Below, one piece after another: positions 15,925 to 50,380 of a stretch of 64,000 nucleotides of DNA. Both the position numbers and the translations under genes were made by a program. Position 1 is the stretch's first letter; each line of letters opens with the position of its first letter. Under the pieces are notes generated by a model. It was not told where the DNA came from, made no database searches, and saw only the letters and a program-made list of their open reading frames with translations. The DNA comes from Paenacidovorax monticola (lineage in GTDB: Bacteria > Pseudomonadota > Gammaproteobacteria > Burkholderiales > Burkholderiaceae_C): the NCBI RefSeq assembly GCF_014489595.1, contig NZ_CP060790.1, positions 2,852,001 through 2,916,000 of the forward strand. The letters run 5' to 3'.

Positions 15925-16700
15925 GAAGAACGCGCAGGCATCCAATCCGTGGAGGTCGGGTTTGCCCTGCTCGAAGGGCTCACGCGGGCACGCGGCCCGC
16001 TCATGCTCAAGGACCTGGCCGCCTCGGCCGACATGAGCGCTGCCAAGGCGCACCGCTACCTCGTGAGCTTCCAGCGCCTGGGCCTGGTCACGCAGGACAG
16101 CCGCACATCGCGCTATGACCTGGGCCCCGCGGCACTCAAGTTAGGACTCGCTTCGCTTTCCCGCCTTGATGCCGTCCGGCTGGCGCGCGAGCGCATGCCC
16201 GCGCTCATGGAAACCATCGGCCACACGCTGGCCCTGGCCGTCTGGGGCAACCGGGGACCGACCATGGTGCACTGGGAGGAGTCCCCCCAGGCCGTCACCG
16301 CCAACCTGCGCCTGGGCGACGTGATGCCCCTGCTCTCCTCCGCCACGGGCCGCTGTTTCGCGGCCTACCTTGCCCCCGAGATCACCGCGCCACTCATCGC
16401 CGAGGAAATCGCCCAGGCCGAGAAAATGCACCGAACTGACCTGCCACGCACCCCCAGGCCGTCGAAGCCCTGTGGCGCGAGGTGCGCGAGCGCGGCTCAG
16501 CCCGCGTGGTGGACACGCTGCTGCCCGGCATCGTGGCGTTCTGCGTCCCCGTGTTCGACGCCGACGGCCACCTGGCCCTTGGCATCACCACGCTCGGCTC
16601 CGTCGCTACCTTCGATCCCGAATGGGGCGGCGCCATCGATGCGCCGCTGCGCGCCGCAGCGGCCCAGCTCTCCAGCGACCTGGGCTGGGGCAGCGTCTGA
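15901..16700 (+). CDS. IclR family transcriptional regulator, frameshifted
   Basis: About 266 aa if one frameshift is corrected. The N-terminal winged helix is clear (SVEVGFALLEGLTRA, LKDLAASADMSAAKAHRYL) and is followed by the IclR effector domain (PALMETIGHTLALAVWGN, LPLLSSATGR-like region). After RTDLPRTP the frame changes at a C5 run (16,451-16,455). One added C restores QAVEALWREVRERGSARVV and the domain's end VVDTLLPGIVAFCVPVFD. Without it, translation runs on into the next gene. Divergent from the FAH-family enzyme, so probably its regulator. The start codon lies in a terminal inverted repeat. Confidence 0.82.
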
Positions 16701-16725
16701 CGCGGCCCCCGGCTGCGACTCTCCC

Positions 16726-17879
16726 ATGCCCCGGCGTGCCCTCCTGCTGATCACCGCCCTGGTGCTGGCGCTGCACTGGCTGGTGCTGGAAGGGCTGCCG
16801 CTGCGCTGGGACGGCCCCAGCGCCCCCGTGAGCACGGTCTTCAGCACCCGCAGCCTCCCGCCCCCGGCCGCGCCCGAACCTGCGGCGCAGCCACCGTCGC
16901 CACCGTCGCCACCGTCGCCACCGTCGCCACCGTCGCCACCGTCCAAACCCCGTCCGGCACCAGCCCGGCCTGCCGCCAAGGCGCAGCCTAGTAAAGCCCC
17001 CGCCCCCGAGGCCCCGCCGACCGATGCCATTCCCGAGCCGGTACCGGCCAGCGAAGTGGCGCAGGCCGAGCCCCCACCGGCCGAACCAGCGCCGGCGGCA
17101 CTGGAGCCCCCCCGGCACCGGCCCCCGCCGCCAGCGCGCCCGCGGCGCCGGCCAGCACGCCGGCGGCCGAAGACCCGGGCGTGGACATCACGCCCCCCGG
17201 CGGCGGCACGGGCCACCCGAGCAGCACGGCGCCGCCACCCGTCAAACTCCCCGCGCCCATGCGGCTCGCCTTCGACGTGGGCGGCCAGGCCAAGCGGTTC
17301 CAGTACAGCGCGCGCGCCGAACTGGTCTGGACGCACGACGGCAACCGCTATGAGGCACGGCAGGAAATCAGCGCCTTCCTCATGGGCACGCGTGCCCAGA
17401 CCAGCGTGGGCCAGGTGACCGACCGGGGCCTGCTGCCCACCCGCTTCGGCGACAAGGCGCGCAGCGAGCAGGCCGCGCATTTCGACTTTGTCCAGGGGCG
17501 CGCCACCTTCAGCGCCAACACACCCGCCGCCGCCATCGCCCCCGGCGCGCAGGACCGGCTCAGCGTGTTCATCCAGCTCTCGGCCATGCTGGCGGCCGAC
17601 CCGGGCCGCTACCCTGCGGGCACCGAGATCACGCTGACCACCGTGAGCGCCCGCGCGGCCGACCGCTGGACCTTCCGCGTCGAGGGCCAGGAAACGCTGG
17701 ACCTGCCCGTGGGCTCCATGCCCACCTGGAAGCTGCAGCGCATACCCCGGCGCGAGTACGACCAGAAGGCCGAGCTGTGGCTGGCCCCCTCCCTGCAGTA
17801 TCTGCCCGTGCGCATCCGCCTGACCCAGGCCAACGGCGACTTCGCCGACCTGCGCCTGAGCGCCAGCAGCCCGCCCTGA
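16726..17879 (+). CDS. DUF3108 domain protein with proline-rich linker, frameshifted
   Basis: About 384 aa if corrected. An N-terminal membrane anchor (residues 5-22) is followed by a long Pro/Ala linker that includes a PPS tripeptide repeat, then a periplasmic DUF3108 domain (RLAFDVGGQAKRFQY, FSANTPAAAIAPGAQDRL, LPVGSMPTWKLQRI). The linker frame and the domain frame differ by one base. A missing C in the C7 run at 17,107-17,113 accounts for it, since adding one restores a continuous Pro/Ala linker. TonB-like architecture suggests it spans the periplasm; function unknown. Confidence 0.78.
16891..16944 (+). repeat. six tandem 9-base units
   Basis: CCACCGTCG is repeated six times, the last unit ending in C, in frame within the DUF3108 gene and encoding PPS repeats. 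Such minisatellites can change copy number by slippage; the frame is preserved because each unit is three codons. Confidence 0.9.
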
Positions 17880-18027
17880 GCCCCCGCCAGCTGCAAAGAA
17901 TGCCCGCGCGAGCCCGAAGACGCTCCGCTTTCATGAAATACTGTAAAGACGCTCCATGAAAGGCTTCAGGCCTTGAACTTCCATGGGGCCGCTGTCATCT
18001 GACAGTCAAACAGACTGGGGGAACGCC

Positions 18028-18330
18028 ATGCAAATGCTCTACGACTCTGAATCCTTTGTGGTGGTCCACATGCTGCCCGATGCCGTTCAGCAGCCCGCCG
18101 CAGCCCCTGGCGATGCCTCCGACACGCCACCGGTGCCGCAACTGGCGCGCCATGGCTTCGAAATCGTGGACAAGCGCTCCGGCAAGGAGGTCTACCTCGA
18201 CGGCTCCTGGGCAGAGATGTTCCAGCAGCAGATCCTGGCCTGGCAGCGCGAAACGCCCACCCAGGAAGAGGTGGAAGACACCCTCGACCGCTACGCGGGG
18301 CTCGCCCAGAACCCCGTGGTCGTGCACTGA
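18028..18330 (+). CDS. DUF3567 family protein
   Basis: 100 aa. Small soluble protein of the beta-proteobacterial DUF3567 family: MQMLYDSESFVVVHM at the start, FEIVDKRSGKEVYLDG in the middle, and the C-terminal EVEDTLDRYAGLAQNPVVVH. No known function. Start at ATG 18,028 is supported by a GGGGGA stretch 7-12 bases upstream; a longer frame from 17,983 lacks family similarity. Two copies of AAGACGCTCC (17,917 and 17,946) lie in its upstream region. Confidence 0.85.
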   Translation: MQMLYDSESFVVVHMLPDAVQQPAAAPGDASDTPPVPQLARHGFEIVDKRSGKEVYLDGSWAEMFQQQILAWQRETPTQEEVEDTLDRYAGLAQNPVVVH

Positions 18331-18334
18331 CCGA

Positions 18335-18450
18335 GGGCGGAAGGTTCGGGGCCTCGGCCCCTTCGCGGTCCACCGCCGGTGGACCGCTGCCCCGCGAGGG
18401 GCACAGCGCGCCGTGGCTGGCCCACGGCGCCTTCATTTCAGCGGTGCCCC
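18335..18450. repeat. multi-hairpin palindromic intergenic repeat
   Basis: Several perfect hairpins follow one another: CGGTCCACC/GGTGGACCG (18,366-18,386), GCCGTGG/CCACGGC (18,409-18,427) and a GGGGCC/GGCCCC pair. It fills the gap between the convergent DUF3567 and UDP-xylose synthase genes. Similar hairpin-rich blocks occur at 47,000 and 57,350. The remainder up to 18,602 holds no gene I can support. Confidence 0.6.
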
Positions 18451-18602
18451 CTTTATGCTGCTGATAGGAAGGCACGCCAGAAACGCCGTCGCCACCCGCG
18501 CACCCATGAGCCACGGATGGGCCCGCACCGGCCCCGACCACGTGCCTAGCCCCTGCGGGTTTGCACTCAGCCCGCCATACCGAGCCGCCCGACGGCCAGG
18601 AG

Positions 18603-19556
18603 CTATGCCGCGCCCTCCTGCTGCCGGAAATAGTCGATGGTTCTGCCCAGGCCCGTGTCCAGATCGACCTGCGGCCACCATCCGCCAAGAAGCTCGTGCG
18701 CCCGGGCGATGTCGGGCCGCCGCTGCCGGGGATCGTCCCCAGGCAGCGGGTGGTAGGCGATCCGAGCGCCCGAGTGAATCCGCGCGAGAACCTTCTGGGC
18801 CAGCTCCAGGATCGTGAATTCGCCCGGATTGCCCAGATTGACGGGCCCGGCCACGTCGTCCGCCGTGGCCATCATGCGCACCAGCGCCTCCACCAGGTCG
18901 TCCACATAGCAGAAGCTGCGGGTCTGGGCTCCCGTACCGTACACCGTCAGATCCTCCCCCCGCAACGCCTGGACGATGAAGTTGGAAACGACGCGGCCAT
19001 CGTCGGGACGCATGCGAGGGCCATAGGTGTTGAACAGCCGCACCACCTTCGTACGCACGCCGTGCTGGCGCCGGTAGTCAAAGAACATGGTTTCCGCACA
19101 GCGCTTGCCCTCGTCGTAGCAGGCACGCACGCCGATGGGGTTGACGTTGCCCCAATAGGACTCCGGCTGCGGATGCACCATGGGGTCGCCATACACCTCG
19201 CTGGTGGAGGTCTGGAGGATGACGGCATTGCGCTTGCGGGCCAGCTCCAGCAGGTTCAGCGCGCCGATCACGCTGGTGCGCATGGTCCGCAGCGGGTCGG
19301 CCTGGTAGTGCACAGGCGATGCGGGGCATGCCAGGTTGTAGATCTGGTCTACCTCGGCATCGAAGGGCTGCGTGATGTCATGCGGCAGCACCTGAAAGCG
19401 GGGGGAGGACCGGAGATGGGCAATGTTCCCCTCGGCCCCCGTGGAAAAATCATCCACGCACAGGACGGCATGGCCATCCCGCAGCAGGCGCTCGCACAGG
19501 TGCGACCCCAGGAAGCCCGCGCCTCCCGTGACCAGTGTTCTTTTGGCAGCCGTCAT
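18603..19556 (-). CDS. UDP-glucuronate decarboxylase (UDP-xylose synthase)
   Basis: 317 aa, the length of soluble UXS enzymes. Converts UDP-glucuronate to UDP-xylose through an NAD-dependent short-chain dehydrogenase fold. GGAGFLG (residues 11-17) binds NAD; catalytic TSE (118-120), Tyr147 and Lys151 (YDEGK) are present; [13 protein letters not shown] and [15 protein letters not shown] are characteristic of UXS. Its start overlaps the ugd stop by four bases (ATGA), so substrate production and use are coupled. By eye it is less GC-rich than the flanks. A C4-epimerase activity is less likely given the UXS signatures. Confidence 0.9.
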
Positions 19557-23916: not shown

Positions 23917-23926
23917 GGCCCCCCCT

Positions 23927-24340: not shown

Positions 24341-24387
24341 GGCATGCATCTTGAAGAAGAGAGAAGGGAGAGGCTCTACCAGCGCCG

Positions 24388-25061
24388 TCACAGCCCGGGC
24401 ACCACGCCCCGGCCGGGCACCAGCGTGCCCACATAGTCGGCCACGGTGGGGCGCAGGCGCGCGGGTTTGCGCGACAGCACCGTACCCAGGCTCACGAAGC
24501 ACAGCGGCCATTCGCCGTCGGCCAGCCCGAACAGGGTGCGCAGTGCCGTCGAACGCAGCGCCTTGCCGCTCGTGAGCGCGGAGCCGAAGCCCAGAGCCGT
24601 GGCCATGAGCAGCAGGTTCTGCACCGCGCAGCCCGTGGAAACGATGCGCTCGTGCAGATCGATCTCGGGGTCGCCTCCACGCCCATCGGCCACCACCAGC
24701 AGCAGCACGGGAGCGCGGTGCGCCTTCTCGCGCGCCTGCGCGAGTTGCTCGGGTGCGGCCTCGGGGTCGCGCTCGGCCAGGGCCTGTGCGAAGACCTCGG
24801 CCAGGGCGGCGCGCGCACCGGCCGGCACGAGCACGAAGCGCCAGGGCAGCAGACGGCCATGGTCGGGGCATGGGCGGCCGCGCCCAGGATGGCCGCGAGC
24901 TGCCCGGCATCGGGCCCCGGCGCGCCCAGGCGCTTGGGCAGGATGGTCTGGCGCGCCTGCAGCAGCGCGGCGGCTGCGTCGGCCCAGGGCTCGGCCGCGG
25001 GGCACCCCGCCACAGGGCGCAGCGGGATCACAGGGCGCATGGACTCGGCCGGCAGGCTCAT
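24388..25061 (-). CDS. nitroreductase family protein (YdjA type), frameshifted
   Basis: About 224 aa if corrected. The N-terminal 66 residues (LLQARQTILPKRLGAPGP, AAILGAAAHAP) and the rest (DHGRLLPWRFVLVPAGAR, CAVQNLLLMATALGFGS) lie in different frames. One base missing from the four-base run at 24,865-24,868 (CCCC on the coding strand) joins them into the FMN-binding YdjA-like sequence PDHGRLxPWRF. These flavoproteins reduce nitro or quinone compounds with NAD(P)H. Its ATG overlaps the stop of the ribonucleotide reductase gene (ATGA), so the two are coupled. Confidence 0.8.
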
Positions 25062-28315: not shown

Positions 28316-28340
28316 GGGGATGCGCTCCCTGTGCCCGGCG

Positions 28341-29165
28341 CTACTGCACGAGCGGCGTGCCGGCCGCGTCGAGCACCACGCCACCGATCTCGGCCTCGCC
28401 GGCCAGCACCTGCAGGTACTGGCGCAGCGCGTTCACCCAGGCCTGCTGGCGCAGCAGCATCGCCACGGCCGGGCGCACTTCCTCGAAGGATGTGGGACGG
28501 CCCGCCTCGCGCTCGCAGACCTCGACCACGTGCAGGCCGAAGCGGCTGTGCACGAGACGCGCCATCACGCCGACCTCGGCCGACCCGAAGACCTCGCGCG
28601 CGAACTCGGGCGCGCAGTCCCCGCGCGCAAGCCAGCCCAGCTCGCCGCCCTCCTGCCCGCTGGGGCAGTTGGACCACTGGCGCGCGGCCTCGGCGAACCG
28701 CTGGCCGCCGTCGTGGGCGCAGCGCAGCTCGATGAGCAGCGCCTCGGCGCGCTGGCGCAGGGCCCGCACGTCCACGCCCGGCGTGACGGCGAACAGCACA
28801 TGCCGCAGCCGCGCACGCTCGCCCTGGCCGTGCAGCGCGGGGTGGGCGGCGTGGTAGCGCTGGCAGGCGTCTTCGGAAGGCTCGGGGATCTGCAGTGCCT
28901 CGTCGAGCAGGCGCTCGATGGCCTGCGCGGCCTCGGCGCTCGTGGCGCCGTCGGTGCCCGGCTGGTCGTCGGCGGCCAGCAGGCCCGCGCGCTGCGCCTG
29001 CTGGCGCAGCAGCTCGGTGCAGGCGCGCTGGCGCAGGGCCTCGTCGGGCAAGAGCTGGCCGCGGGCATGCAGGGGTACGCCGTTCACATGGGCGACGGGC
29101 GCGCCGACGGTATCGGCGGCGGGCGCCGCGCAGCCGCAGGCGCCGGATCCACAGGTGGCTTGCAT
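28341..29165 (-). CDS. peptidyl-prolyl cis-trans isomerase, parvulin (PpiC/NifM type)
   Basis: 274 aa. The parvulin domain occupies about residues 115-210: RLRHVLFAVTPGVD, FAEAARQWSNCPSGQEGG, ELGWLARGDCAPEFAREVF and FGLHVVEVCEREAG. An N-terminal Cys-rich stretch (CGSGACGC) and a helical domain precede it. There is no signal peptide, so it probably acts in the cytoplasm, like NifM on nitrogenase. It follows narI by 34 bases on the same strand; parvulins in this position are known in related nar clusters (from memory) and probably assist folding of nitrate reductase (inference). Confidence 0.87.
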   Translation of the reverse strand: MQATCGSGACGCAAPAADTVGAPVAHVNGVPLHARGQLLPDEALRQRACTELLRQQAQRAGLLAADDQPGTDGATSAEAAQAIERLLDEALQIPEPSEDACQRYHAAHPALHGQGERARLRHVLFAVTPGVDVRALRQRAEALLIELRCAHDGGQRFAEAARQWSNCPSGQEGGELGWLARGDCAPEFAREVFGSAEVGVMARLVHSRFGLHVVEVCEREAGRPTSFEEVRPAVAMLLRQQAWVNALRQYLQVLAGEAEIGGVVLDAAGTPLVQ

Positions 29166-36065: not shown

Positions 36066-37483
36066 TCAGCAGGGCATCTCGGCGTGGCGGCGCGCGTAGT
36101 ACCACCAGGTGATGGCGATGCAGATCGCGTAGAAAGCCACGAAGACCCACAGCGCGGCCTGGGGGCCGCCCGTCAGCGCGATGGAGCTGCCGTAGCTCTT
36201 GGGAATGAAGAAGCCGCCATAGGCCGCCATGGCCGCGGTGAAGCCCAGCGTGGCAGCGCCCAGCGTGTTGCCTTCCTTCTGGGCCTGTGCCACGGCGGCA
36301 GCGTCGTTGGGCTCCACGCCGCGCATGGCCTCGGTGAGGAAGATCACGGGGATCATGCGGAAGGTCGAACCGTTGCCGATGCCCGTGGTGAGGAACAGCA
36401 CCAGGAAGCACAGGAAGAAGCCCGTGAACTGCCCGCCGGCGCCGTGGGCCGGCAGGAACTGGACCACGCCCACCACGGCCAGCGCCATCACGATGAAGTT
36501 CCACAGCGTGACGCGCGCGCCGCCGAGCTTGTCGGCCAGCCAGCCGCCGAACGGCCGCACCACGGCGCCCACCAGGGGGCCCAGCCAGGCATAGGCCAGC
36601 GGGTTGACGCCAGGGAACTGGCTCTTGATGAGCAGCGGAAAGCCCGCGGCGTAGCCGATGAACGAGCCGAAGGTGCCCAGATAGAGCACGCACATCAGCC
36701 AGTTGTGCTTGCGCCGGAAGATCGCCGCCTGGGCGGCGAACGAAGCCTTCGCGTCGGAGATGTCGTTCATGCCGAACCAGGCCGCCAGCGACGTGAGGGC
36801 GATCCAGGGCACCCAGATGAAGGCCGCGTTCTGCGTCCACACCTGCTGGGTCTGGCCCCCTTCACCACGGTCTGCGCATCGCCGCCGAACACGCCGAAGA
36901 TGCCGGCCGTGACGACCAGGGGGCTCAGGAACTGCACCACCGACACGCCCAGGTTGCCCAGGCCCGCGTTCACGCCCAGCGCCGAGCCCTTGCGCTCCTT
37001 CGGGAAGAAGAAGCTGATGTTGGCCATGCTGGAGCTAAAGTTGCCACCGCCCAGGCCGCACAGCAGCGCGAGCGCGAGCATGGTGGGGTAGCTGGTGGTG
37101 TTGTCCTGCACCGCGATGCCGATGCCAATGGCCGGAATCAGCAGCGAGGCGGTGGAGATGGCCGTCCAGCGCCGTCCGCCGAAGATGGGCACCATGAACG
37201 AATAGAAGATGCGCAGCGTGGCGCCCGAGAGCGCCGGCGCCGCCGCGAGCCAGAAGAGCTGGTTGGTCGAGTACTTGAAGCCCAGCGTGGGCAGGTTCAC
37301 GGCGACCACGCTCCAGACCTGCCAGATGGCGAAGGCCAGGAAGAGCGCGGGCACCGAGATCCAGAGGTTGAGCTTGGCGATGGCCTCGCCTTCGCGCTCC
37401 CAGAAGTTCTTGTCCTCGGGAGTCCAGAGCGTGAGCAGGCGCCCGGGGCGGCTGCCGCGTTGGGGAACGGAATGGGCGTTCAT
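36066..37483 (-). CDS. narK2: nitrate/nitrite transporter NarK2 type, frameshifted
   Basis: About 472 aa if corrected. Major-facilitator nitrate/nitrite porter with about 12 membrane segments. The N-terminal part (FWEREGEAIAKLNLWISVPA, LALALLCGLGGGNFSSSMAN, FFFPKERKGSALGVNAGLGN) matches the NarK nitrate signature. After FGGDAQTVVKG the frame shifts at a five-base run (36,856-36,860; GGGGG on the coding strand). One added G continues QTQQVWTQNAAFIWVPW in the frame that holds the second half (TGIGNGSTFRMIPVIF). 19 bases after narK1. A lone base deletion in an otherwise intact operon suggests a sequence error. Confidence 0.87.
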
Positions 37484-37502
37484 GGAAAGTCTCCGGTGAA
37501 TC

Positions 37503-38822
37503 TCAGCGCGCGGCGGGCGCCAGGGCGGCCGTTCCGTGCGGGGCCATCACATCGGTGCGGCGCACCTCGGTGAAGTACATCCAGATGAGCGACACCCAGA
37601 CCACGCCATACATGAGCATGAAGGCGCTGGAGCGCACACCCGTCCAGTCCATGAGCGCGCCGAACAGGATGGGCAGGATGAAGCCGCCCATGCCGCCGGC
37701 CAGCCCCACGATGCCGCTGATGGCGCCGATGTTGTGGGGGTAGTCGTCGCTGATGTACTTGAAGACGCTGGCCTTGCCGAAGGCCCACGAGATGCCCAGC
37801 AGGAACATGAGGCCCGTGAAGGCATACACGTTCAGGCCGATGTGGAAGGTGGTGGGGCCGTTCACGGTCTGGACCGTGAAGTCGGTCTGCGGGTAGGACA
37901 GCAGGAACAGGCAGATCCAGCTCACCCACATCACCCACCAGGTGACGCTGTGGGCGCCGAACCTGTCGCTGAGCACGCCACCGATGGCCCGCAGCACGCC
38001 GCCGGGCAGCGAGAAGCAGGCCGCCAGCAGCGCGGCCACGCGGATGTCCAGACCGTACTCGCCCACGTAGTACTGCACCATCCACAGCGACAGCGCCACG
38101 TAGCCACCGAACACGATGCTGTAGTACTGGCAGTACTTGAGCACCTTGGGGTCCTTGAGCGCGCGGAGCTGGTCGGTGAACCTGACGTTGCTGGGCACCA
38201 GGTGGGCCGGGTCGCTGTGGCTGAACAGCCAGAACAGCACCAGCGTGCCCAGCATGATGGCCGCGTACACATGGGGCACGGCGGCCCAGCCGAAGGCCAC
38301 CAGGATCACGGGCGCCACGAACTTGTTCACGGCCGCTCCCGAGTTGCCCGCGCCGTACACGCCCATGGCCATGCCCTGGCGGTGCTTGGGAAACCAGCGC
38401 GCCACATAGGGCGTGCCCACCGAGAACGAGCCCCCGGCCAGGCCCACGAACAGGCCGATCACGAGGAAATGCCAGTACTCGGTGGCGTAGCCCATCATCC
38501 AGATGGCGGGCACGGTGGTGGCCATGAGCAGGGCCATGACGATGCGGCCGCCATAGCGGTCCGTCCAGATGCCCAGCGGCACGCGCACCAGCGAGCCCGT
38601 GAGCACGGGCATGGCCGTGAGCAGGCCGAACTGCGTGGAGCTCAGGTTCAGCATCTTCTTGATCGGGATGCCGATGACGCCGAACATCATCCACACCATG
38701 AAGCACACGGTGAAGGCCAGCGTGCTCACGATGAGCACGGACCAGGCCTGGCGGGTATGGCGCGGACTCTCGGCGCCGGACTGCATGGCGCCGGATGCGG
38801 CGCCTTTCGACGGGATGGCCAT
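37503..38822 (-). CDS. narK1: nitrate transporter NarK1 type (nitrate/proton symporter)
   Basis: 439 aa. Major-facilitator protein of the NarK1/NasA class; about 12 membrane spans. Signatures: MVWMMFGVIGIPIKK, PVLTGSLVRVPLGIWTDRYGG near the first cytoplasmic loop, GLAGGSFSVGTPYVARWFP and GMAMGVYGAGNSGAAV. In paired NarK1-NarK2 systems, type 1 imports nitrate with protons and type 2 exchanges nitrate for nitrite. Start at ATG 38,822 follows AAGGACAAG. It is first gene after the narL terminator, so it should have its own promoter in 38,823-38,910; I see no clear FNR box there. Confidence 0.92.
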   Translation of the reverse strand: MAIPSKGAASGAMQSGAESPRHTRQAWSVLIVSTLAFTVCFMVWMMFGVIGIPIKKMLNLSSTQFGLLTAMPVLTGSLVRVPLGIWTDRYGGRIVMALLMATTVPAIWMMGYATEYWHFLVIGLFVGLAGGSFSVGTPYVARWFPKHRQGMAMGVYGAGNSGAAVNKFVAPVILVAFGWAAVPHVYAAIMLGTLVLFWLFSHSDPAHLVPSNVRFTDQLRALKDPKVLKYCQYYSIVFGGYVALSLWMVQYYVGEYGLDIRVAALLAACFSLPGGVLRAIGGVLSDRFGAHSVTWWVMWVSWICLFLLSYPQTDFTVQTVNGPTTFHIGLNVYAFTGLMFLLGISWAFGKASVFKYISDDYPHNIGAISGIVGLAGGMGGFILPILFGALMDWTGVRSSAFMLMYGVVWVSLIWMYFTEVRRTDVMAPHGTAALAPAAR

Positions 38823-39666: not shown

Positions 39667-41555
39667 TCAGGCCGCCAGCGTGGGGGCTGGCTGCACATGG
39701 GGGGAAGGGGGCAGCTCGATGCACACGCAGGTGCCGTGGCCGGGCCGGGATTGGACGTGGACCGTGGCATCCACGCGCAGCGCACGCTCGCGCATGATGC
39801 CCAGGCCCACGTGCAGCGAGTCGGGCGCCACGCGCGCAGGGTCGAATCCGCGGCCATCGTCGCGCACCTCGAAGCGCCACGGGCGGCGCTGCACCAGCAA
39901 CTCCACGCGGCTCGCGCCCGCGTGCTTGCGCACGTTGGACAGCGCCTCCTGCACCATGTGCAGCACCTGGATCTGCACGTCGGGCGCCAGCGGCAGGCCC
40001 TGGCCCGTCAGGGTGAGCGCCGTGGCGATGCCCGTCTGGTGCTCGAACTTGGAGAGCGTAGCGCGCAGCGCGGCCTCGATGTCCTCGGCGCTCGTGCGCG
40101 TGCGGAAATGCACCAGCAGCTCGCGCACGTCGGCATAGCACTCGCGCACGCCCACGTCGAGCTCGCCCATGCTGCGGTCGCGCGCCTCGGTGTTGCCCTT
40201 GGCGACCGCATCGCGCAGCAGCTGGGTCTGGATCTTGAGGAAGGCCAGCGACTGCGCGATCGAATCGTGCAGCTCGCGCGCGATGAGTCCGCGTTCCTCG
40301 GCCACGGCGGCCTCGCGTTCGAGCGCTGTGGCGCGCAGGCTCTCCATCGAGCTGGCCAGGTGCCGCGCCATGGTGGACAGCAGGTCGCGCATGCCGTCGG
40401 CCAGCACCACGCTGGAGCGGAAGAACAGGTTGACCTCGCCCAGCAGGCGCTGCTGCAGCTGCACGGGGATGCTGACCACGGTCTCGAAGCCCGCCTCGCG
40501 GCAGTGGGGCAGATGCAGGTCGGACGCGGGCGTGATCGGGATCACGCGCATGTGCGCCTGCGCCTGGGCCTGGCCGCACAGACAGGAGCCCGTGTGCAGG
40601 CAATGCTCCTGCTCGGCCATGGACTGCGGCAGGCCGTCGCCCGCGAGCAGCACATAGCGCTCGTTGGCCTCGTCGGACCAGCGCACGGCCGCCGCGTCGC
40701 TGCCGGCCACGCGGCGGATCTGCTGCACGAAGCCCTGGGCCAGCGCGTCGAGGCTGCTGGCCTCGGCCGCCAGCGCGCTCACGGCGTAGAGCGCGGCCAG
40801 GCGCTGGTTCTGCACCTCGATGCTGGCGGTCTTCTCGCGCACCTTGCGCTCCAGGTCCTCGTGCGAGGCCTGCAGCGCATGCGCCATGAGGTTGAAGCCC
40901 GCCGAGAGCTGGCCGAACTCGTCGTCCGTGTCCACTGCCAGGCGCGTGCCCAGGTCCCCCTGGCGCATGCGCGCCAGCGCCTGCTGCAGCCGGGCCACGG
41001 GGTTGAGCACCAGCAGATAGCTCACGGCCATGAAGGTCACGGCCGCCACGATGGCCAGTGCCATCATGAAGAGTTGGAACAGATGCAGCGCGGCCGTCCA
41101 GCGCGCGATCTGGGTTTCGATGGCCTCGACGAAGCCGTCCACCTGGCGCACGAAAGCGTCGGCGCGCACCACGGCCTGGGGGCCGCCCGTGGAGGCCGAA
41201 ACGCTCCACTCCGCGCGCAGGGAGCGCCACTCGGCGCACACGCGGTCGTAACGGGCGCGCGTGTCGTCGCTCCAGGGGACGAACAGCGGGCGCGCGGGTC
41301 GCCCGTGCGCAGCAGCTCCAGGCTGGCGTCGAACTGGCGCTCCAGCGCATCCTGCTCCCGGGGTGATTCGTTCTGCTGCGCCAGCACCATGCGCAGCATG
41401 TTCATGCGCAGGCGCCCCGCCTCGTTCACGGCGGCCGCGCCGCCCTCGAGCTGCCAGGTCACCCACAGCGTGAGGCCGATGGACATCAGGGCCACCAGCA
41501 GGAAGCCCGCGCCCATGGCCAGCAGCTTGGTCGTCAGCGATGGCCTTTTGCGCAT
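39667..41555 (-). CDS. narX: nitrate/nitrite sensor histidine kinase NarX, frameshifted
   Basis: About 629 aa if corrected. N-terminal membrane span (KLLAMGAGFLLVALMSIGL), a periplasmic sensor with RMNMLRMVLAQQNES (P-box-like), second span near 225, HAMP, a central Cys-bearing module (HCLHTGSCLCGQ) and a HisKA_3 kinase with ARELHDSIAQSLAFLKIQ, HMVQEALSNVRKHA and DDGRGFDP. After SLELLRTGDP the frame changes; one base missing in the C-rich stretch 41,288-41,298 restores PLFVPWSDDTRARYD. No ribosome site precedes ATG 41,555, and an FNR-type box lies 34-47 bases upstream. It pairs with NarL. Confidence 0.88.
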
Positions 41556-41588
41556 GCTGGCAGTGTAGGAAAGGGGCGGCGGAGCGTC

Positions 41589-41602
41589 TTGACCCACATC
41601 AA
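41589..41602. promoter_or_regulatory. FNR/Anr-type box upstream of narX
   Basis: TTGATGTGGGTCAA on the minus strand differs by one base from the FNR consensus TTGAT-N4-ATCAA. A TACACT hexamer (a good -10) begins 28 bases from the box centre, the spacing of class II FNR-activated promoters (-41.5). Consensus and spacing are known for FNR; its use here is inferred. The box also lies 26 bases from the divergent ChaN-like gene. Confidence 0.7.
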
Positions 41603-41627
41603 TTTCCGGCACGTATAGCATCGCGCC

Positions 41628-42484
41628 ATGTCCCCCGCCCACACTCCACCCGCCCTGTGGCGCCCCGCCGCGCTGGCCCTGGCCCTGCTGGGCGCAGGCT
41701 GCGCCACGCCGCCCCCGCGCCCGACTGGTCCGCCCACCTGGCCAGCCAGCCCCCACGGCCCTGCTGCTGCTCGGCGAGCAGCACGATGCGCGCGAGCACC
41801 AGCAGTGGGAGCAGGCCACCGTGCAGTGGCTGGCCGGGCGCAGGCAGCTTGCCGCCGTGGTGATCGAAATGGCCGAGGCAGGCCAGGGCACCGGCGGCCT
41901 GCCCGCCGACGCCACCGAGGAGCAGGCCCGCCAGGCCCTGCGCTGGAGCGATGCGGCCTGGCCCTGGACCCAGTACGGCCCGTGGTGATGGCCGCCGTGC
42001 GCGCGGGCGTGCCGGTGCATGGCGGCAACCTGCCGCGCGCGGACATGCGCGCCGCCATGCAGGACACGGCGCTCGACGCGCACCTGCCCGCCCCGCGCTC
42101 GAGCGCCAGCACGAGGCGCTGCGCACGGGCCACTGCGGCCTGCTGCCCGAGGCCCAGGTCGCCCCCATGGCCCGCGTGCAGCTCGCGCGCGACCGGAGCC
42201 TCGCCCAGACCGCGCAGCAGGCGCTGCGCCCCGGCCAGACGGTGCTGCTGGTGGCGGGCGCGGGCCATGTGCGCCGCGGCCTGGGCGTACCGACCTGGCT
42301 ACCGCAGGGTTTGGCTTACAAAGTGGCCATCGCGCAGGCGGGACAAGCGCAACCAGCTATCGAAAGAGAAGCAGACTGGATCCACGCCACCCCCGCCCTG
42401 CCCCCACGCGACCACTGCGCCGAACTGCGCGCGCGCTGGCAGTCCGCACCGGGCGCTACGCCTGCGCCTGCAGCAGCGCCGTGA
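41628..42484 (+). CDS. ChaN/haem-binding-uptake family lipoprotein with four frame breaks
   Basis: About 286 aa if corrected. Signal with lipobox LLGAGC. The domain (PF04187, ChaN-like) reads LLLGEQHDAREHQQWEQA, VVIEMAEAGQGTGG, VHGGNLPRADMRAAMQD, VAPMARVQLARDRSLA and LLVAGAGHVRRGLGVP. Each step between segments needs one added C, at C runs 41,712-41,716, 41,750-41,754, 41,979-41,981 and 42,091-42,094. Corrected, the gene is continuous and family-like. ChaN proteins bind haem at the outer membrane. Either it is heavily mis-sequenced or truly decayed. Its end overlaps the convergent GGDEF/EAL gene by 29 bases. Confidence 0.72.
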
Positions 42485-45112
42485 ACTCGGCCACGGGCAC
42501 CGGCCGGCTGCACAGGTAGCCCTGGTAGCGGTCGCAGCCGCGCTCGCGCAGGAAGGCGAGCTGCTCCTGCGTCTCAACCCCCTCGGCCAGCACCTGCAGC
42601 CCCAGGCTGTGGCCCATGGCGATGATGGCCGCGCTGATGGCCATGTCGTCGCCGCTGCGCGGGATGTCGCGGATGAAGCCCTGGTCGATCTTCAGTACGT
42701 CGATCGGAAACCGCTTGAGATGGGCCAGCGACGAGTAGCCCGTGCCGAAGTCGTCCACCGCCATGCGCACGCCCAGCGCCTGCAGGCGCAGCAGCACCTG
42801 GCGCGCCTCCTCGGGGCGTTCGGCCAGCGCGGTCTCGGTCAGCTCCAGTTCCAGCCGGTGGGCCGGGAAGCCGCTTTCGGCCAGGGCCGATGCCGCGCAG
42901 CCGGCCACGTCGGTCAGGTGGAACTGGCGCGGCGACAGGTTCACGGCCAGCGTGAGTTCGGGCAGCCCGGCCTCGCGCCAGCGCTGGCCCTGCAGGCACA
43001 CCTCGCGCATGACCCATTCGCCCAGCGGCCCGATCACGCCCGAGACCTCGGCCACGGGAATGAAGCGCGCCGGCGAGATCAGCCCCTCATGGGGGTCGAG
43101 CCAGCGCACCAGTGCCTCGGCCCCCACGATGCGGCCTGACGCGATGTCCACCTGCGGCTGGAAGTACAGCTTCAGGTGCCCCTGCGTCAGCGCCAGGCGC
43201 AGGCGCGACTCCATGGCCAGGCGCTCGCGCGCGGCCAGGGTCATGTCCTCGTGGAAGAAGCACCAGGCACCGCGCCCGCGCGCCTTGGCGCCGTAGACGG
43301 CGGCGTGCGCGCCCTGCTGCAGCGTCTGCGCGCTCTGCGCGTGGGCGGGAAACAGGCAGATGCCCACGCTCGCGCCCGCCACGACGGCAAAGCCCTCGGG
43401 CGAGCGCCAGGGCTCGGCCACGGCGTCGATGAGGTTCTGCGCCACAGCCTCGGCCTCGTCCGGGTTGCGCAGGTGGCGCGCCACCACGGCCAGTTCGTCG
43501 CCCGCCATGCGGCCCAGCAGGTCGCCGGGGCGCAGCGCCGCCTGGGCCTGGCGCGTGATGTGCTTAAGCACTTCATCGCCCACGGCGTGGCCGTAGCTGT
43601 CGTTCACGTCCTTGAAGCGGTCCAGGTTCAGCAGCAGCACGGCCAGTTGCTCGCCGCTGGCGCGGGCCTCCCGCACGGCCTCTTCGAGCTGGTGGTTGAA
43701 CCACACGCGGTTGGCCAGCCCGGTGAGCGGGTCGTTGTGGGCCAGGAACTCCAGGCGCTCGCGCTGGGCCTTCTCCTCGGAGATGTCGGTGAACATGCAC
43801 ACGTAGTGCGTCACGGCGCCGGCGGCATCGCGCACGGCCGACAGCGACATGTGCTCGGGAAAGATCTCGCCATTCTTGCGCCGGTTCCAGATTTCGCCCT
43901 GCCAGTGGCCCGTGCGGTGCATGCGCTCCCACATGGCCTCGTAGAACGTGCGGTCGTGGCGGCCCGACTTGAACAGGCGCGGCGTCTTGCCCAGCAGCTC
44001 GGCCTCGGTGTAGCCCATGAGCCGCGTGAACGCGGCGTTCACCGAGAGGATGTGGTTCTGCGCGTCGGTGACCACCACGCCCTCGATCGTGTTGTCCACC
44101 ACGGTGGCGGCCAGGCGCTGGCGCTCTTCCGCGTGCAGGCGCCCGGTCAGGTCGGTGAGCAGGCCGGAAAAGCGCGCGGGCTGGCCGTCGGCGTCCAGGT
44201 GGCGCAGCCCCCGGGCCAGGAACCAGCGGTATTCGCCGTCGTAGCACAGCAGGCGCGCGCTCTGCTCGAAGGGCTCTCCCGACTCCAGGGCCGCGCGCAC
44301 GGCCATGCGCACGCGCTCGCGGTCCTCCGGGTGCAGCCGGTCCGCAAAGCGGAATTCCTGCGCGAAATCCGGCCCCTGGTAGCGCAGCATGCGCTCGATC
44401 CCTCCGGAGAAGGTGTTCTTGCGCTGCACCATGTCCCAGTCCCACATGCCGCTGCCGCTGCCGTCCAGCGCCAGGCGCAGCCGGGTCTCGCTGTGCGCGA
44501 GCGCGGTGCGCGCGGCCTCGACCTCGGCCATGTCCTGCAGCACGCAGACCAGGTGCTCGGGCCCGTCGCCCGCCTCGGGCACGTAGGTGACGGTGCACAG
44601 CACGGGCACCGTGTGGCCATCGCCCGGGCGGCGGCAGCGGCGCTCGCTCTGGTAGTGGTCGGTGCGCCCGGCCTTCATCCCCTCCAGCTGCTGGGCCGCC
44701 CATGCCTGGTCGGACGCGGCGAACAGGTCGCGGAAGTCCGTCGCCTGCAGCGCCGCCTCGTCCACACCCAGCAGGCGGCACAGGCGCGCGTTGGCCCAGA
44801 TGACGCGGCCCGACAGCGCCACACGCGCGATGCCCGCGGGGGCGTGGCGCGCGATCTGCGACAGCTCCGTCGCGATGGCCGAGCGCACGCGCTCGGCGCG
44901 GCGCATGCGCTGCAGCATCCACCAGGCCAGCCCACCCGTGAGCAGCACATAGCCCCAGCCCTTGAGGGTCTGGTAGCGGGTGATCTGCTGCGGGTCGTCC
45001 ACCAGGCCCGCCAGCAGGGCATCGCCCACGAAAACCCATACCACGCCGACCACGAGGTACAGGGCCATGCCCCACCAGGGGGCGATTCGGGGGCTGAGCC
45101 CGCGTTGTCCAT
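42456..45112 (-). CDS. PAS-GGDEF-EAL cyclic-di-GMP signalling protein, frameshifted near the start
   Basis: About 885 aa. A membrane span near the N-terminus, three PAS-type sensor regions (about 70-450), a GGDEF domain (NDPLTGLANRVWFNHQL) and an EAL domain. The GGDEF active site reads AGDEL, so synthesis of c-di-GMP is doubtful. The EAL site is intact (EALVRWLDP, VDDFGTGYSSLAHLKRFP, EGVETQEQL), so phosphodiesterase activity is likely. ATG 45,112 has an ideal GAGGAG and gives MDNAGSAPESPP. It joins the WWGMALYLVVG frame if one C is added at 45,078-45,082; otherwise the start is ATG 45,068. It converges on the ChaN gene. Confidence 0.87.
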
Positions 45113-45162
45113 GGATCTCCTCATTCCACGCGACCCGGGCCGTGCTGCGACAATTCGCGGCT

Positions 45163-46011
45163 ATGACCCAAGCCTACATTCTTACTCTGTCCTGCCCCGA
45201 CCGCCTGGGGCTGGTGCACGCCGTGTCCGGCTTCCTGCTGGAGCACGGCGGCAACATCGAGGAAGCCGCTCAATACAACGACCACGCCACGGGCCTGTTC
45301 TTCATGCGCGTGCAGTTCGCCTGCGGCGACCACGACCCGGCGACGCTCAAGTCGCGCCTGGCCGCCTTCGCCGAGCCGCACCAGATGCGCTGGAGCCTGC
45401 ACGCCACGGCCGAAGCCATGAAGACCGTGCTCCTGGTCAGCAAGGAAGGCCACTGCCTCAACGACCTGCTGTTCCGCTGGAAGAGCGGCCTGCTGCCCGT
45501 GGACATCCGCGCCATCATCAGCAACCACCGCGACTTCTACCAGCTCGCCGCCAGCTACAACGTTCCCTTCCACCACATTCCGGTCACGGCCGCCACCAAG
45601 GCGCAGGCCGAGGCACGGCAATACGAGATCATCGAGGCCGAAGGCGCCGAGCTCGTGGTGCTGGCCCGCTACATGCAGGTGCTGTCCAACGACCTGTGCA
45701 CCAAGCTGGCCGGCCGCGCGATCAACATCCACCACAGCTTCCTGCCCAGTTTCAAGGGCGCCAAGCCCTACTACCAGGCCCACGACCGCGGCGTGAAACT
45801 GATCGGCGCGACGGCCCACTACGTGACGGCCGACCTCGACGAGGGGCCGATTATCGAACAAGATGTAACACGAGCGGATCACACGGATACCGTGGACGCC
45901 CTGACCGCGCGTGGCCGCGACACCGAAAGCCAGGTGCTGGCACGCGCCGTCAAGTGGCACAGCGAGCACCGCGTGCTGCTCAACGGCCACAAGACCGTCA
46001 TCTTCCGCTGA
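45163..46011 (+). CDS. purU: formyltetrahydrofolate deformylase
   Basis: 282 aa. Hydrolyses 10-formyl-tetrahydrofolate to formate and tetrahydrofolate. An N-terminal ACT domain (ILTLSCPDRLGLVHAVSGFL) is followed by the formyltransferase fold with ISNHRDF, INIHHSFLPSFKGAKPY (catalytic Asn/His) and IGATAHYVTADLDEGPIIEQD split across two motifs (catalytic Asp). Length and order match PurU. It is divergent from the GGDEF/EAL gene with a 50-base gap. Confidence 0.95.
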   Translation: MTQAYILTLSCPDRLGLVHAVSGFLLEHGGNIEEAAQYNDHATGLFFMRVQFACGDHDPATLKSRLAAFAEPHQMRWSLHATAEAMKTVLLVSKEGHCLNDLLFRWKSGLLPVDIRAIISNHRDFYQLAASYNVPFHHIPVTAATKAQAEARQYEIIEAEGAELVVLARYMQVLSNDLCTKLAGRAINIHHSFLPSFKGAKPYYQAHDRGVKLIGATAHYVTADLDEGPIIEQDVTRADHTDTVDALTARGRDTESQVLARAVKWHSEHRVLLNGHKTVIFR

Positions 46012-46024
46012 AGCCCAAATCCAG

Positions 46025-46998
46025 ATGGCGCATCCATCGCATCGCTTGAGCGCCGCCGGGCCGACCCAAGGCGCGAAGGCCCCCTCGGGGGGCAGCGCAG
46101 TACGCGAAGCGGCCAGCGTGGGGGCCAATTCTGCACGGCGCATTCCGCCCATCCAGTGCCTGCTCACCTTCGAGGCACTGGCGCGCCTGCGCAGCGTGAC
46201 CCAGACGGCCGACGAGCTGTGCGTGACGCCCAGCGCCGTGAGCCACCGCGTCAAGCAGCTCGAGCAGATCCTGGGCACACGGCTGTTCGGCCGTGCCGAC
46301 TTCTCGCTCACCACCGAGGGCAGCAGCTACCTGGCCCAGGTGCGCGAGGGCCTGGGTGCGCTGCAGCGCTTTCCGGGCGCGGCGGCCGCGCCGGGGCGCC
46401 GGCGCCTCAAGCTGGCCGTGACGCCGACGTTCGCGCGCTGCATCCTGATTCCGCGCCTGGGCCAGTTCACCGAGGCCTACCCCGAGATCGACCTGGCGCT
46501 GCAGGTCTCCATTCCGCTGCTGGACGTGGTGGCCGAGGACGCCGACCTCATGGTGCGCTACGGCCCGGCCACTATGCCGACGTGGAGCATGTGGAGATCG
46601 CGCGCGACGTGCTCACGCCGCTGGCCTCGCCCGCCTTCGTCCGCGAGCACGGCCCCTTCGAGCGCCCCGAGGACCTCGAAGGCGTGGCGCTGCTGCGCAG
46701 CCCGCTCGAACCCTGGCGCACCTGGTTCGCCGCCGCCGGGCTCGACTGGGCCGAGCCCAGCGAAGGCTCGCAGTTCAACGACATCGGCCTCATGTGCGAC
46801 GCGGCGGCGGCCGGCATGGGCGTGGCACCCGTGCGGCTCAAGCTCGGCGCGCCCTGGCTGGAGCATGGCACCCTGGTCCGCCTGTTTGCCACCAACGCGC
46901 CCAGCCCCCATGCGCACTACCTGTGCTGGCGCACCGGCACCATGGACCGCTGGGAATGCGCGGCCTTCGCCGACTGGCTGCGCAAGACCATGGCTTGA
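46025..46998 (+). CDS. LysR family regulator (GcvA-like), frameshifted, N-terminus from a repeat
   Basis: About 324 aa from ATG 46,025, or 293 from GTG 46,118. The winged helix begins IPPIQCLLTFEALARLRSV and has AVSHRVKQLEQILGTRLF; the effector domain includes RRLKLAVTPTFARCILIPRL and FNDIGLMCDAAAAGMGV. The frame breaks after LMVRYGP; one C added to the short run 46,564-46,566 restores GHYADVEHVEIARDVL. The first 31 residues (GAKAPSGGSAVREA region) are encoded by a hairpin repeat, so the later GTG may be the real start. Starts 13 bases after purU and may be cotranscribed. Target genes unknown. Confidence 0.8.
46062..46126. repeat. palindromic repeat overlapping LysR start
   Basis: GGCCCCCTCGGGGGGC and the flanking GGCCCCC...GGGGGCC form hairpins. 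The sequence resembles dispersed intergenic repeats of Comamonadaceae whose translation gives GAKAPSGGSAV-type peptides (from memory). It falls between purU and the conserved LysR domain. Confidence 0.65.
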
Positions 46999-46999
46999 A

Positions 47000-47110
47000 T
47001 GGTGACGCCCCTGAGGCCCTGCGGGCCTTCCCCCCGCTCTCGCAGCGCTGCGGGCGTGGGGACGCAGCCCTCGCTGCGGGGTGGCGCGGCCGGCTCAGGC
47101 CCTTGCTCGG
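47000..47110. repeat. hairpin-rich intergenic repeat
   Basis: Block beginning CCCCTGAGGCCCTGCGGGCCTTCC with repeated GCTGCG-type palindromes. It aligns by eye with the block after pilU (57,350), sharing CCCTGAGGC followed by a short palindrome and CTTCCCCC. It lies between the LysR and GlcD genes; the rest of that 253-base gap holds a T7 run (47,150-47,156) but no gene. Confidence 0.6.
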
Positions 47111-47251
47111 CTGCCCTGGCCCAGGGTGCGCCAGCTTGATCAGTCGATTCTTTTTTTCACTGCCCCATCGACAGGCGCTGCAGGGTATTTCAACCCGTAC
47201 CCTGAAGAAAACTCACGCCGTGCGCGCCGCACTTGGCCTACAGTGGCCCCC

Positions 47252-48760
47252 ATGAACGCGATCGCCGTCTCCGAAGTCACCTCCGCCGAGCGCGCCCAGC
47301 GCGCGGCACGCCAGGCCGAGGCCGTGCAGGCCCTGGGCCGGGCCGTTCCCGCCCACGCGCTGCTGTGGCAGCCCGAGGACACCACGCCCTACGAGTGCGA
47401 CGGCCTCACGGCCTACCGCCAGCGCCCTCTCGTCGTCTGCCTGCCCGAGACCGAGGAGCAGGTACAGGCCGTGCTGCGCACCTGCCACCAACTGCAGGTG
47501 CCCGTGGTGGCTCGCGGCGCGGGCACGGGCCTGTCGGGCGGCGCCATGCCGCACGCCCTGGGCGTGACGCTGTCGCTCGCCAAGTTCAACCGCATACTGA
47601 AGGTGGACCCGACGAGCCGCACGGCCACCGTGCAGTGCGGCGTGCGCAACCTCGCCATCAGCGAGGCGGCGGCGCCCCATGGCCTGTACTACGCGCCCGA
47701 CCCGAGCAGCCAGATCGCCTGCACCATCGGCGGCAACATCGCCGAGAACTCGGGCGGCGTGCATTGCCTGAAGTACGGCCTGACGGTGCACAACGTGCTG
47801 CGCGTGCGCGGCTACACCATGGAGGGCGAGCCGGTCGAGTTCGGCAGCAACGCGCTCGACACGCCGGGCCTCGATCTGCTGGCCGCCGTGATCGGCAGCG
47901 AGGGCATGCTCGCCGTGGCCACCGAGATCACCGTCAAGCTCGTGCCCAAGCCGCAGCTGGCGCGCTGCATCATGGCCAGCTTCGACGACGTGCGCAAGGC
48001 GGGCGACGCCGTGGCCGCCGTGATCGCGGCGGGCATCATCCCTGCCGGGCTGGAGATGATGGACAAGCCCATGACCGCCGCCGTCGAGGACTTCGTGAAG
48101 GCCGGCTACGACCTCACGGCCGAGGCCATCCTGCTGTGCGAGAGCGACGGCACGCCCGAGGAGGTGGAGGAAGAAATCGCCCGCATGAGCGAGGTGCTGC
48201 GCCACGCGGGCGCCACCGCCCTCTCGGTGAGCGAGAGCGAGGAAGAGCGCCTGCGCTTCTGGAGCGGGCGCAAGAACGCCTTTCCGGCCAGCGGCCGCAT
48301 CAGCCCCGACTACATGTGCATGGACTCGACCATCCCGCGCAAGCGCCTGGCCGACATCCTGCTGGCCATCCAGGAGATGGAGAAGAAGTACCGCCTGCGC
48401 TGCTGCAACGTGTTCCACGCGGGCGACGGCAACTTGCACCCGCTGATCCTGTTCGACGCGAACGACCCCGACGAGCTGCACCGCTGCGAGCTCTTCGGCG
48501 CCGACATCCTGGAGACCAGCGTGCGGATGGGCGGCACGGTGACCGGCGAGCACGGCGTGGGCGTGGAAAAGCTCAACAGCATGTGCACCCAGTTCACCAC
48601 CGAGGAGAACGCGCAGATGATCGCCCTCAAGGCCGCGTTCGACCCCGCGGGCCTGCTCAACCCCGGCAAGGTGATCCCCACCCTCAACCGCTGCGCCGAA
48701 TACGGCAAGATGCTCGTGCGCGGCGGCAAGCTCGCGCACCCGGACCTGCCGCGTTTCTGA
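47252..48760 (+). CDS. FAD-linked oxidase, GlcD/D-lactate dehydrogenase type
   Basis: 502 aa. Vanillyl-alcohol-oxidase-fold flavoprotein oxidising a 2-hydroxy acid such as glycolate or D-lactate. FAD-binding VVARGAGTGLSGGAMP near residue 87 and GGNIAENSGGVHCLKYG near 163; C-terminal FAD-oxidase domain with CNVFHAGDGNLHPLILFD and GTVTGEHGVGVEKL. Most similar in outline to GlcD, but glcE and glcF are not adjacent, so D-lactate dehydrogenase is a real alternative. No symbol is given for that reason. Confidence 0.85.
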   Translation: MNAIAVSEVTSAERAQRAARQAEAVQALGRAVPAHALLWQPEDTTPYECDGLTAYRQRPLVVCLPETEEQVQAVLRTCHQLQVPVVARGAGTGLSGGAMPHALGVTLSLAKFNRILKVDPTSRTATVQCGVRNLAISEAAAPHGLYYAPDPSSQIACTIGGNIAENSGGVHCLKYGLTVHNVLRVRGYTMEGEPVEFGSNALDTPGLDLLAAVIGSEGMLAVATEITVKLVPKPQLARCIMASFDDVRKAGDAVAAVIAAGIIPAGLEMMDKPMTAAVEDFVKAGYDLTAEAILLCESDGTPEEVEEEIARMSEVLRHAGATALSVSESEEERLRFWSGRKNAFPASGRISPDYMCMDSTIPRKRLADILLAIQEMEKKYRLRCCNVFHAGDGNLHPLILFDANDPDELHRCELFGADILETSVRMGGTVTGEHGVGVEKLNSMCTQFTTEENAQMIALKAAFDPAGLLNPGKVIPTLNRCAEYGKMLVRGGKLAHPDLPRF

Positions 48761-48787
48761 GCGGAGCGCGGCCTTCTTCCGGCCGAT

Positions 48788-50113
48788 TCAGCCCAGCGCC
48801 CGCCGCACGATCTCGGCCGCGTGCCCAGCCAGGTGCGTGCAGCCGAACAACACCAGCCCGATGAGCCCGCCCACCACGGTGCCGTTGATGCGGATGTACT
48901 GCAGGTCGCGGCCGATGTGCAGCTCGATGAGGTGCGAAAGTTCCTGCGCGTCCCAGCGCTGCACGGTGTCGCGGATGTGCTGCGCCACGAAGCGCGACAC
49001 ATCGGGCGCCAGGCCCTGGGCCCAGCGCTCCAGCCGCTGGTTGAGCGCCTCGCGCAGCGCCGCGTCGGCCCCGAGCGAACGCCCGAGCCACGCGCCCAGC
49101 AGACGCACCTGGCGCGCCACGGCCGAATCCGGCAGCGCCAGGTCGCGCAGCAGCGCGGCGCGCGCGCCCTGCCACAGCTCCTGCACATAGCGGCCCACGG
49201 CCGGGTCGCCACGCAGGTAGTCGCGGATCTCGGTGGCCTTGCGCGCCCAGGCCGGGTCGGTCTGCAGGCGGCGCACGAAGCGCTGCACGGCCGCGTCGAA
49301 CTGCGCGCGCAGCACATGGCGCGGGTTGGCGGCCACCTCGGCCAGCAGGGTCTGCAACGCATTCGCCACCAGGTCCGATCCCTGCTCGCCCAGCCACTCG
49401 GTGGGCAGCACCTTTTCCTTGAGCGGATGCTCCTGCTTGAGCCAGTGCACGATGGTCTGCGCGATGAGCGCGCGCGTGTCCTCGTCCTGCAGCGTGCGGA
49501 TGAGGCGCTCGATCGCCTCGTCGAGCAGCGCCTGGTGGCGCCCGCCCTGCGTGAGCGCGGCCAGGGCCGTGGCCAGCGTCTGCGAGAGGTCGAGCCGGCC
49601 GATCAGCGTGCGCAGCGCCTGGCGCAGAAAGCGCTCGATGCGCGCGTCCTGCACGGTGTCGAGCACGGCCGCCAGCAGGCGCGCCGCCTGCTGGCCCAGC
49701 AGGTCGGCGTTGGCCGGATCGACGAGCCACTGCGCAAGCCGCGCGGCCGGGTCGTTGCGGCGCAGCAGCGCGACCAGCGAGTCGGGGTCGAGGAACTTGT
49801 CGCGCACGAAGGCCGCCAGGTTCTCGCCGATGCGGTCCTTGTTGGCCGGAATCACGGCCGTGTGCGGAATGGGCAGGCCCAGCGGCCTGCGGAACAGCGC
49901 CACCACGGCGAACCAGTCGGCCAGCGCACCCACCATCGCGGCCTCGGCCACGGCCTTGAGGCCATCGGTCCACAGGCTGCGCGGCGCCAGGCTGCTGGCC
50001 ACGAACAAGGCCACGAACAGCAGCAGCAAGCCCAGCGCGAGGCGCTGGGCGCGCACCAGGTCGGACCGGCCGGGAGGGCTGGAAGACGGGGGCAGGCCTG
50101 GGCGGGTGGTCAT
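48788..50113 (-). CDS. DUF445 family membrane-anchored protein (YjiN-like)
   Basis: 441 aa. An N-terminal hydrophobic segment (LALGLLLLFVALFVASSLAP) and a C-terminal one (VVGGLIGLVLFGCTHLAG) anchor a long, mainly helical, charged middle section. VGALADWFAVVALFRRPLGLPIPHT lies across two conserved segments near residue 70 and is diagnostic of DUF445. Role is unknown. Convergent with the GlcD-like gene. Confidence 0.88.
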   Translation of the reverse strand: MTTRPGLPPSSSPPGRSDLVRAQRLALGLLLLFVALFVASSLAPRSLWTDGLKAVAEAAMVGALADWFAVVALFRRPLGLPIPHTAVIPANKDRIGENLAAFVRDKFLDPDSLVALLRRNDPAARLAQWLVDPANADLLGQQAARLLAAVLDTVQDARIERFLRQALRTLIGRLDLSQTLATALAALTQGGRHQALLDEAIERLIRTLQDEDTRALIAQTIVHWLKQEHPLKEKVLPTEWLGEQGSDLVANALQTLLAEVAANPRHVLRAQFDAAVQRFVRRLQTDPAWARKATEIRDYLRGDPAVGRYVQELWQGARAALLRDLALPDSAVARQVRLLGAWLGRSLGADAALREALNQRLERWAQGLAPDVSRFVAQHIRDTVQRWDAQELSHLIELHIGRDLQYIRINGTVVGGLIGLVLFGCTHLAGHAAEIVRRALG

Positions 50114-50189
50114 GGCAAGGCTCGGCGCTGGGGATGCGCCACCCTACCACGCCCAGTCCGCCGGGAGGAGGCTGGCGCCCGCCCAGGCC

Positions 50190-50380
50190 TTAGCGGTCGG
50201 GCGGCATGCCGCCCCCGTGTTCGCGCTCATGCAGCTCACGCAGCCGCCGGATGTTGGCCTGCATGGCTTCGCGCTGCGCCCGCGTGAGGCGCGGCAGCAC
50301 GGGCGCGGAGCCCCGGGGCGCCTGGGCCGCAGTGCCGGGCCCCTGCGGGGGTGGGATGGGAGGTTCGGGAGAGGGGACAT
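50190..50380 (-). CDS. small hypothetical protein, possibly frameshifted
   Basis: ATG 50,380 is preceded by CAGGAG at an ideal 6-base distance. Its frame starts MSPLPNLPSHP but then loses coding character. A neighbouring frame ends with a convincing charged helix (LTRAQREAMQANIRRLRELH, then GGGMPPDR). One C added to the C run of the early Pro codons would join the two into about 63 aa. Family not recognised; the call rests only on the ribosome site and the helix. Confidence 0.45.

Follow-up and report, generated by a model that had tools for sequence, protein, structure and literature searches.

The window considered here, G000:C1:2852001-2916000, is a stretch of 64,000 nucleotides of the Paenacidovorax monticola genome (G000), which was assembled as a single contig of 4,679,990 bases with ~69% GC. 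Seven of its genes, coding for an IclR-type regulator, a DUF3108 protein, a nitroreductase, a NarK2-type nitrate transporter, the sensor kinase NarX, a ChaN-type protein, and a LysR-type regulator, are split over two or more reading frames (Table 1). Frame breaks of the same kind are found in the sampled parts of the genome outside the window, in genes such as argS and ftsW. As judged from the sequence, it is almost certain that short G/C runs have been systematically under-called by one base in the assembly and that the genes are whole in the organism.

Table 1. Genes of the window for which a frame break was claimed or found (positions within the window; relatives are those whose proteins place the shift)
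Gene	Position	Strand	Frames and break	Domains	Relatives placing the shift
IclR-type regulator	15925..16694	+	two frames, break ~16450-16458	HTH_IclR and IclR_C in homologue	2 of 2 aligned (G009, G017)
DUF3108 protein	16720..17876	+	two frames, break ~17095-17098	DUF3108 by domain scan	2 of 3 (G009, G017)
Nitroreductase	24397..24994	-	two frames, break ~24863-24869	Nitroreductase (Pfam) in 3 of 3 homologues scanned	6 relatives
narK2-type nitrate transporter (MFS)	36069..37516	-	two frames, break ~36859	MFS_1	8 of 8 homologous proteins
narX sensor kinase	39673..41612	-	two frames, break ~41294	PilJ, HAMP, GAF, HisKA_3, HATPase	6 of 6 relatives' proteins
ChaN-type protein	41705..42457	+	several frames; shifts ~41977-41983, ~42090, ~41741-41756, and ~41706	Cofac_haem_bdg (ChaN)	4 of 4, 4 of 4, 3 of 4, and MR-S7 alone, respectively
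LysR-type regulator	46097..46995	+	two frames, break ~46562-46566	HTH_1 and LysR_substrate	3 of 3 (shift ~46562)
GGDEF/EAL protein	42456..45068	-	claimed break at start (45078) unsupported	GGDEF and EAL in homologue	

The 40 genomes considered as references include none of the same genus, and four of the same family (G009, G003, G017, and G006) were used; named reference loci come from Acidovorax sp. MR-S7, NO-1, MAG11, and others. Synteny with the window is largely kept, at a DNA identity of 66-89%. Proteins of the relatives were aligned to the window by a frameshift-tolerant method, and part of the sites were rechecked on DNA. A first pass with tblastn and stop-to-stop open reading frames (ORFs) had given many signals from antisense ORFs or 5' extensions, which were taken as false; hence, a shift was retained only with an identity of at least 50% on each side, in 30-residue windows with at least 20 residues aligned.

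It had originally been predicted that one-base losses break at least eight genes here. Of the eight named as definite, seven are confirmed, with the protein split over frames, but a break in the eighth, the GGDEF/EAL gene, is not supported: its frame is open through 45078, a plausible start lies at 45068, and no relative shows a break. For a small gene near 50.3 kb, where a break had been suggested as a possibility, there is no usable homologue. Within chaN, two of the four claimed sites are firm (4 of 4 relatives), a third is likely (3 of 4), and the last, indicated by MR-S7, is plausible. In the DUF3108 gene the shift falls within a low-complexity Pro/Ala-rich stretch; the third relative, G003, aligns poorly and disagrees on the shift, and the frame scan described below does not flag it. 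The same gene carries at 16890-16945 a tandem repeat whose 9-base unit occurs about five to six times. The stop codon of narX is normal, and a second break once suspected near its 3' end was dropped. (The names narK2 and narX are those of the original prediction.) For the LysR gene, a census of 80 genomes of the family gave a match at E <= 1e-40 in 50 of them; among those listed, G000 is the sole genome whose orthologue consists of two pieces that overlap but lie in different frames, that of G072 being cut by a contig end.

Every supported shift in the window is a net change of -1, as had been claimed, and at five sites the DNA comparison reveals an isolated one-base gap common to at least two relatives, with no comparable insertion in the region. 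The loss of one base from a G/C run also holds, though the runs that remain are short, mostly 3-5 bases and in one case 7. As a control, the same syntenic region was analyzed in three relatives; none of them has more than one cluster supported by two relatives, and clusters of noise like the events put aside in G000 (see below) number 8, 7, and 4.

The question of whether these breaks are peculiar to the window was addressed with a reference-free frame scan, a periodic-Markov model with explicit frameshift transitions that was trained on conserved genes of the relatives and then on G000 itself. A break was accepted only if each side held at least 120 bases. In 664 kb of G000 (14% of the genome), the scan gives 68 breaks, 66 of them deletions and 2 insertions, versus a single break in 600 kb of the four relatives. 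The window accounts for 5 of these, its flanks (140 kb) for 14, twenty 20-kb stretches (18 evenly spaced, the other 2 at the str operon) for 40, and a further 60 kb around two housekeeping regions for 9. The breaks are spread regardless of gene function, with a mean of 2.1 and a variance of 3.1 over 30 stretches of 20 kb, and the window is not enriched in them (5 versus 6.7 expected). A clustering at 16-47 kb, which the homology scans had suggested, was therefore rejected, since the frame scan is equally rich elsewhere. By homology, deletions backed by at least two relatives are also seen in two other regions of G000, that of the str operon (five) and that of the division genes (two). The scan is not exhaustive; in the window, it recovers 5 of the 9-10 sites supported by homology. 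When indels were simulated in G/C runs of 4-6 bases in G003 and G009, it recovered 139 of 214 deletions and 167 of 207 insertions. Insertions are thus the easier to detect, and their scarcity in G000 is not a detection bias. If the 66 deletions are corrected for recall and scaled up to the full genome, a rough extrapolation that leaves out breaks near gene ends gives ~700 false breaks genome-wide.

The breaks share a dependence on G/C runs. The longest such run within 25 bases averages 4.50 (range 2-7) at the 68 breaks versus 3.22 for coding positions chosen at random (p = 3e-24, Mann-Whitney test). The number of apparent deletions per 1000 G/C runs in coding sequence rises from 0.4 at length 3 to 6.8 at length 4, 35 at length 5, 57 at length 6, and 133 at length 7 (2 of 15 runs), rates that are approximate given that each break was assigned to the longest run within 25 nucleotides. 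A/T runs of at least 4 lie near 2 of the 68 breaks (2.9%), compared with 3.4% of random positions.

The genes hit outside the window were examined by an NCBIfam scan of both halves at 20 of the 63 non-window breaks, chosen among the 27 whose shorter half is longest; those omitted, seven in number, include EF-G and EF-Tu, which homology had already revealed. At 14 of these 20 breaks, the two halves correspond to neighboring parts of a single model, and the genes split in this way encode GspD, PtsI, DinG, GlcF, RsmB, ArgS, N-acetylglutamate synthase, an aldehyde dehydrogenase, a hydrolase, an oligopeptide ABC ATPase, FtsW, ThiL, Mpl, and RpoN. A cell cannot do without arginyl-tRNA synthetase or FtsW. 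A search of G000 with the argS model gives a single gene in two pieces, along with two 33-residue matches of 19-23 bits; the gene is whole in all four relatives, whose ArgS proteins place the shift at L165:17703-17718, within 15 bases of each other. Similarly, ftsW is split in G000 and whole in all four relatives, the three that were aligned agreeing on the shift; the search gave one further match below the family cut-off per genome, which was taken as the RodA paralogue. Thus, argS and ftsW are both broken, and no other copy of either was found in G000; a living cell could not carry such a state, and it is consequently the assembly that is at fault. An EF-Tu gene is also broken (two relatives), a result not used as evidence of indispensability. 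The ORF containing HPr also seems to have a break, which was likewise left unused, as it lies before the HPr domain.

Given all of this, under-calling in sequencing or assembly, the explanation favored in the original prediction, fits best: the -1 breaks extend across the sampled genome (66 of 68), their rate rises with run length, argS and ftsW are split, and the relatives are nearly free of such events. The earlier interpretation nevertheless needs widening, as the results support a fault that is a property of the assembly rather than of the window. In this model, the method used for the 4.68-Mb single-contig assembly would have systematically called short G/C homopolymers one base too short, and incomplete correction would have left false frameshifts in conserved genes; the longer runs would then be expected in the raw reads or on accurate resequencing. 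The cause would be long-read consensus error, the assembly being taken as a long-read one because it is a single contig and because of the type of error.

The fault is very probably an artefact of a known kind rather than a real biological feature. Gene-fragmenting homopolymer deletions in long-read bacterial assemblies are reportedly the subject of, among other works, one by Watson and Warr in 2019. PMC12007338 describes long-read deletion errors that most often follow four to five identical bases, as well as a fall in annotated pseudogenes from 23.3% to 5.6% once the errors were corrected. According to PMC8812927, hundreds of errors can remain in long-read-only bacterial assemblies, mostly homopolymer indels that cause frameshifts. 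G000 resembles both accounts in its one-base losses, in runs of ~4-5, in frameshifts that are genome-wide, and in the false pseudogenes that result. It differs in that A/T runs were the commoner ones in PMC12007338, whereas G/C runs dominate in this GC-rich genome.

Several observations weigh against this explanation. Many losses occur at runs of only 3-5, below the classic long-homopolymer error, and G/C runs of at least 6 are not obviously missing from the run spectrum of the genome, which taken alone gives no sign of a fault. Two of the scan breaks are insertions. These apparent insertions lie at L134:19687 and L146:3424. At the DNA level, the two housekeeping regions of G000 give 4 supported deletions but also 2 supported insertions, coding and non-coding unsorted; over all three regions, G009 and G003 have no such events and G017 has 1 deletion and 2 insertions. 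In addition, 6 of the 20 breaks scanned lack one model on both halves (4 have no match, 1 is one-sided, and 1 involves two neighboring permease genes), and some of the frame-scan hits may be false. The break at L148:13190, where a UrtB/LivH-like permease is followed by one of UrtC/LivM-like type, may mark the junction of two genes rather than a break within a gene. Finally, EF-G of the str operon is broken (three relatives), but it was dropped as proof of indispensability, since a second, intact copy makes the split alone compatible with a real loss. The two EF-G genes lie at G000:C1 434415-436514 and 3082614-3084721; the str-operon one is split, and the other is 87% identical to the EF-G of G009.

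Among the alternatives, the one that fares best is that part of the window breaks, for example those in narX, narK2, and chaN, represent real decay on top of the artefact, for instance if the strain is losing its control over nitrate respiration. The concentration of two to four breaks within 0.75 kb in chaN would suit such decay, and from sequence alone artefact and decay are indistinguishable site by site. However, the density of breaks in the window is not above the genome average, and the sites in question bear the same -1, G/C-run signature as those elsewhere. Furthermore, the bias of changes toward the third codon position persists past the break in five of the genes. The changes at positions 1, 2, and 3 downstream of the break are 8, 8, and 32 over 141 codons of the LysR gene (compared with G009), 81, 63, and 189 over 538 codons of narX, 46, 31, and 84 over 260 codons of narK2, 12, 13, and 30 over 85 codons of the IclR gene, and 24, 23, and 56 over 154 codons of the nitroreductase gene. 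An initial count had picked the frame with the most third-position changes; its replacement by the frame of the protein alignment left the outcome unchanged. The short part of narX upstream of its break has no such bias (30, 19, and 30 over 108 codons). Local decay is consequently considered improbable.

It is more improbable still that G000 belongs to a real mutator lineage, for example one without mismatch repair, in which -1 slippage in G/C runs has produced true, fresh pseudogenes. When mismatch repair is lost, slippage in mononucleotide runs is to be expected, and indels in such runs are what G000 has in common with these mutators. However, MutL is unbroken over ~640 residues compared with four relatives (its open frame is 677 residues), and MutS is unbroken over the 742 residues compared with three relatives, a comparison that begins past its N-terminus. 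In addition, a mutator would give insertions as well as deletions, rather than 66 to 2, and a viable cell should not tolerate broken argS and ftsW, each found once. Phase-variable (contingency) poly-G/C loci also change frame at G/C tracts, but they have long tracts and a limited set of switchable genes; here, the tracts are short, with nearby G/C runs averaging 4.5, housekeeping genes are hit genome-wide, and the relatives are in frame. A literature search on phase variation of mutL in Acidovorax found nothing relevant.

Programmed recoding, in which transcriptional slippage or ribosomal frameshifting would restore the frame at short G/C runs, can hardly be entertained, even though slippage-based frame repair has been reported in other organisms (see the review PMC5009743): in the relatives compared, the same proteins are read from a single frame without a conserved shift site, and inspection by eye, without a motif search, found no context shared by the 68 sites beyond the nearby G/C run. 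Nor, given the ~700 sites estimated, do we know of a bacterium that decodes so many. It is just as hard to credit that the sequence is right and that the organism copes with -1 shifts by the hundreds, those in argS and ftsW included, through a general slippage of decoding or transcription.

The under-calling of G/C runs would have consequences for the use of this genome. A single-contig assembly with a completeness score of 99.1% can still hold false frameshifts, several hundred of them by the rough extrapolation given above. If annotated automatically, the organism would probably appear as a nitrate respirer that lacks a whole NarX or NarK2 and as a cell that lacks a whole ArgS or FtsW. Absence or pseudogene calls from the G000 assembly should not be used. 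The reference-free frame scan could be applied to other genomes as a quality check.

A few further events in the window region of G000 were put aside without proof. Those at -11039, -10134, 30659, 46107, and 47298 are each indicated by one relative, and those at 24379-24398 and 28332-28344 are mixed or apparently antisense. Two scan events, at 4594 and 8128, had one side of only 6 and 1 bases, respectively, and were removed by the 120-base filter. At 28332-28344, two relatives indicate an apparent insertion on the plus strand; the conserved gene there seems to lie on the opposite strand, and the signal was taken to come from an antisense ORF.

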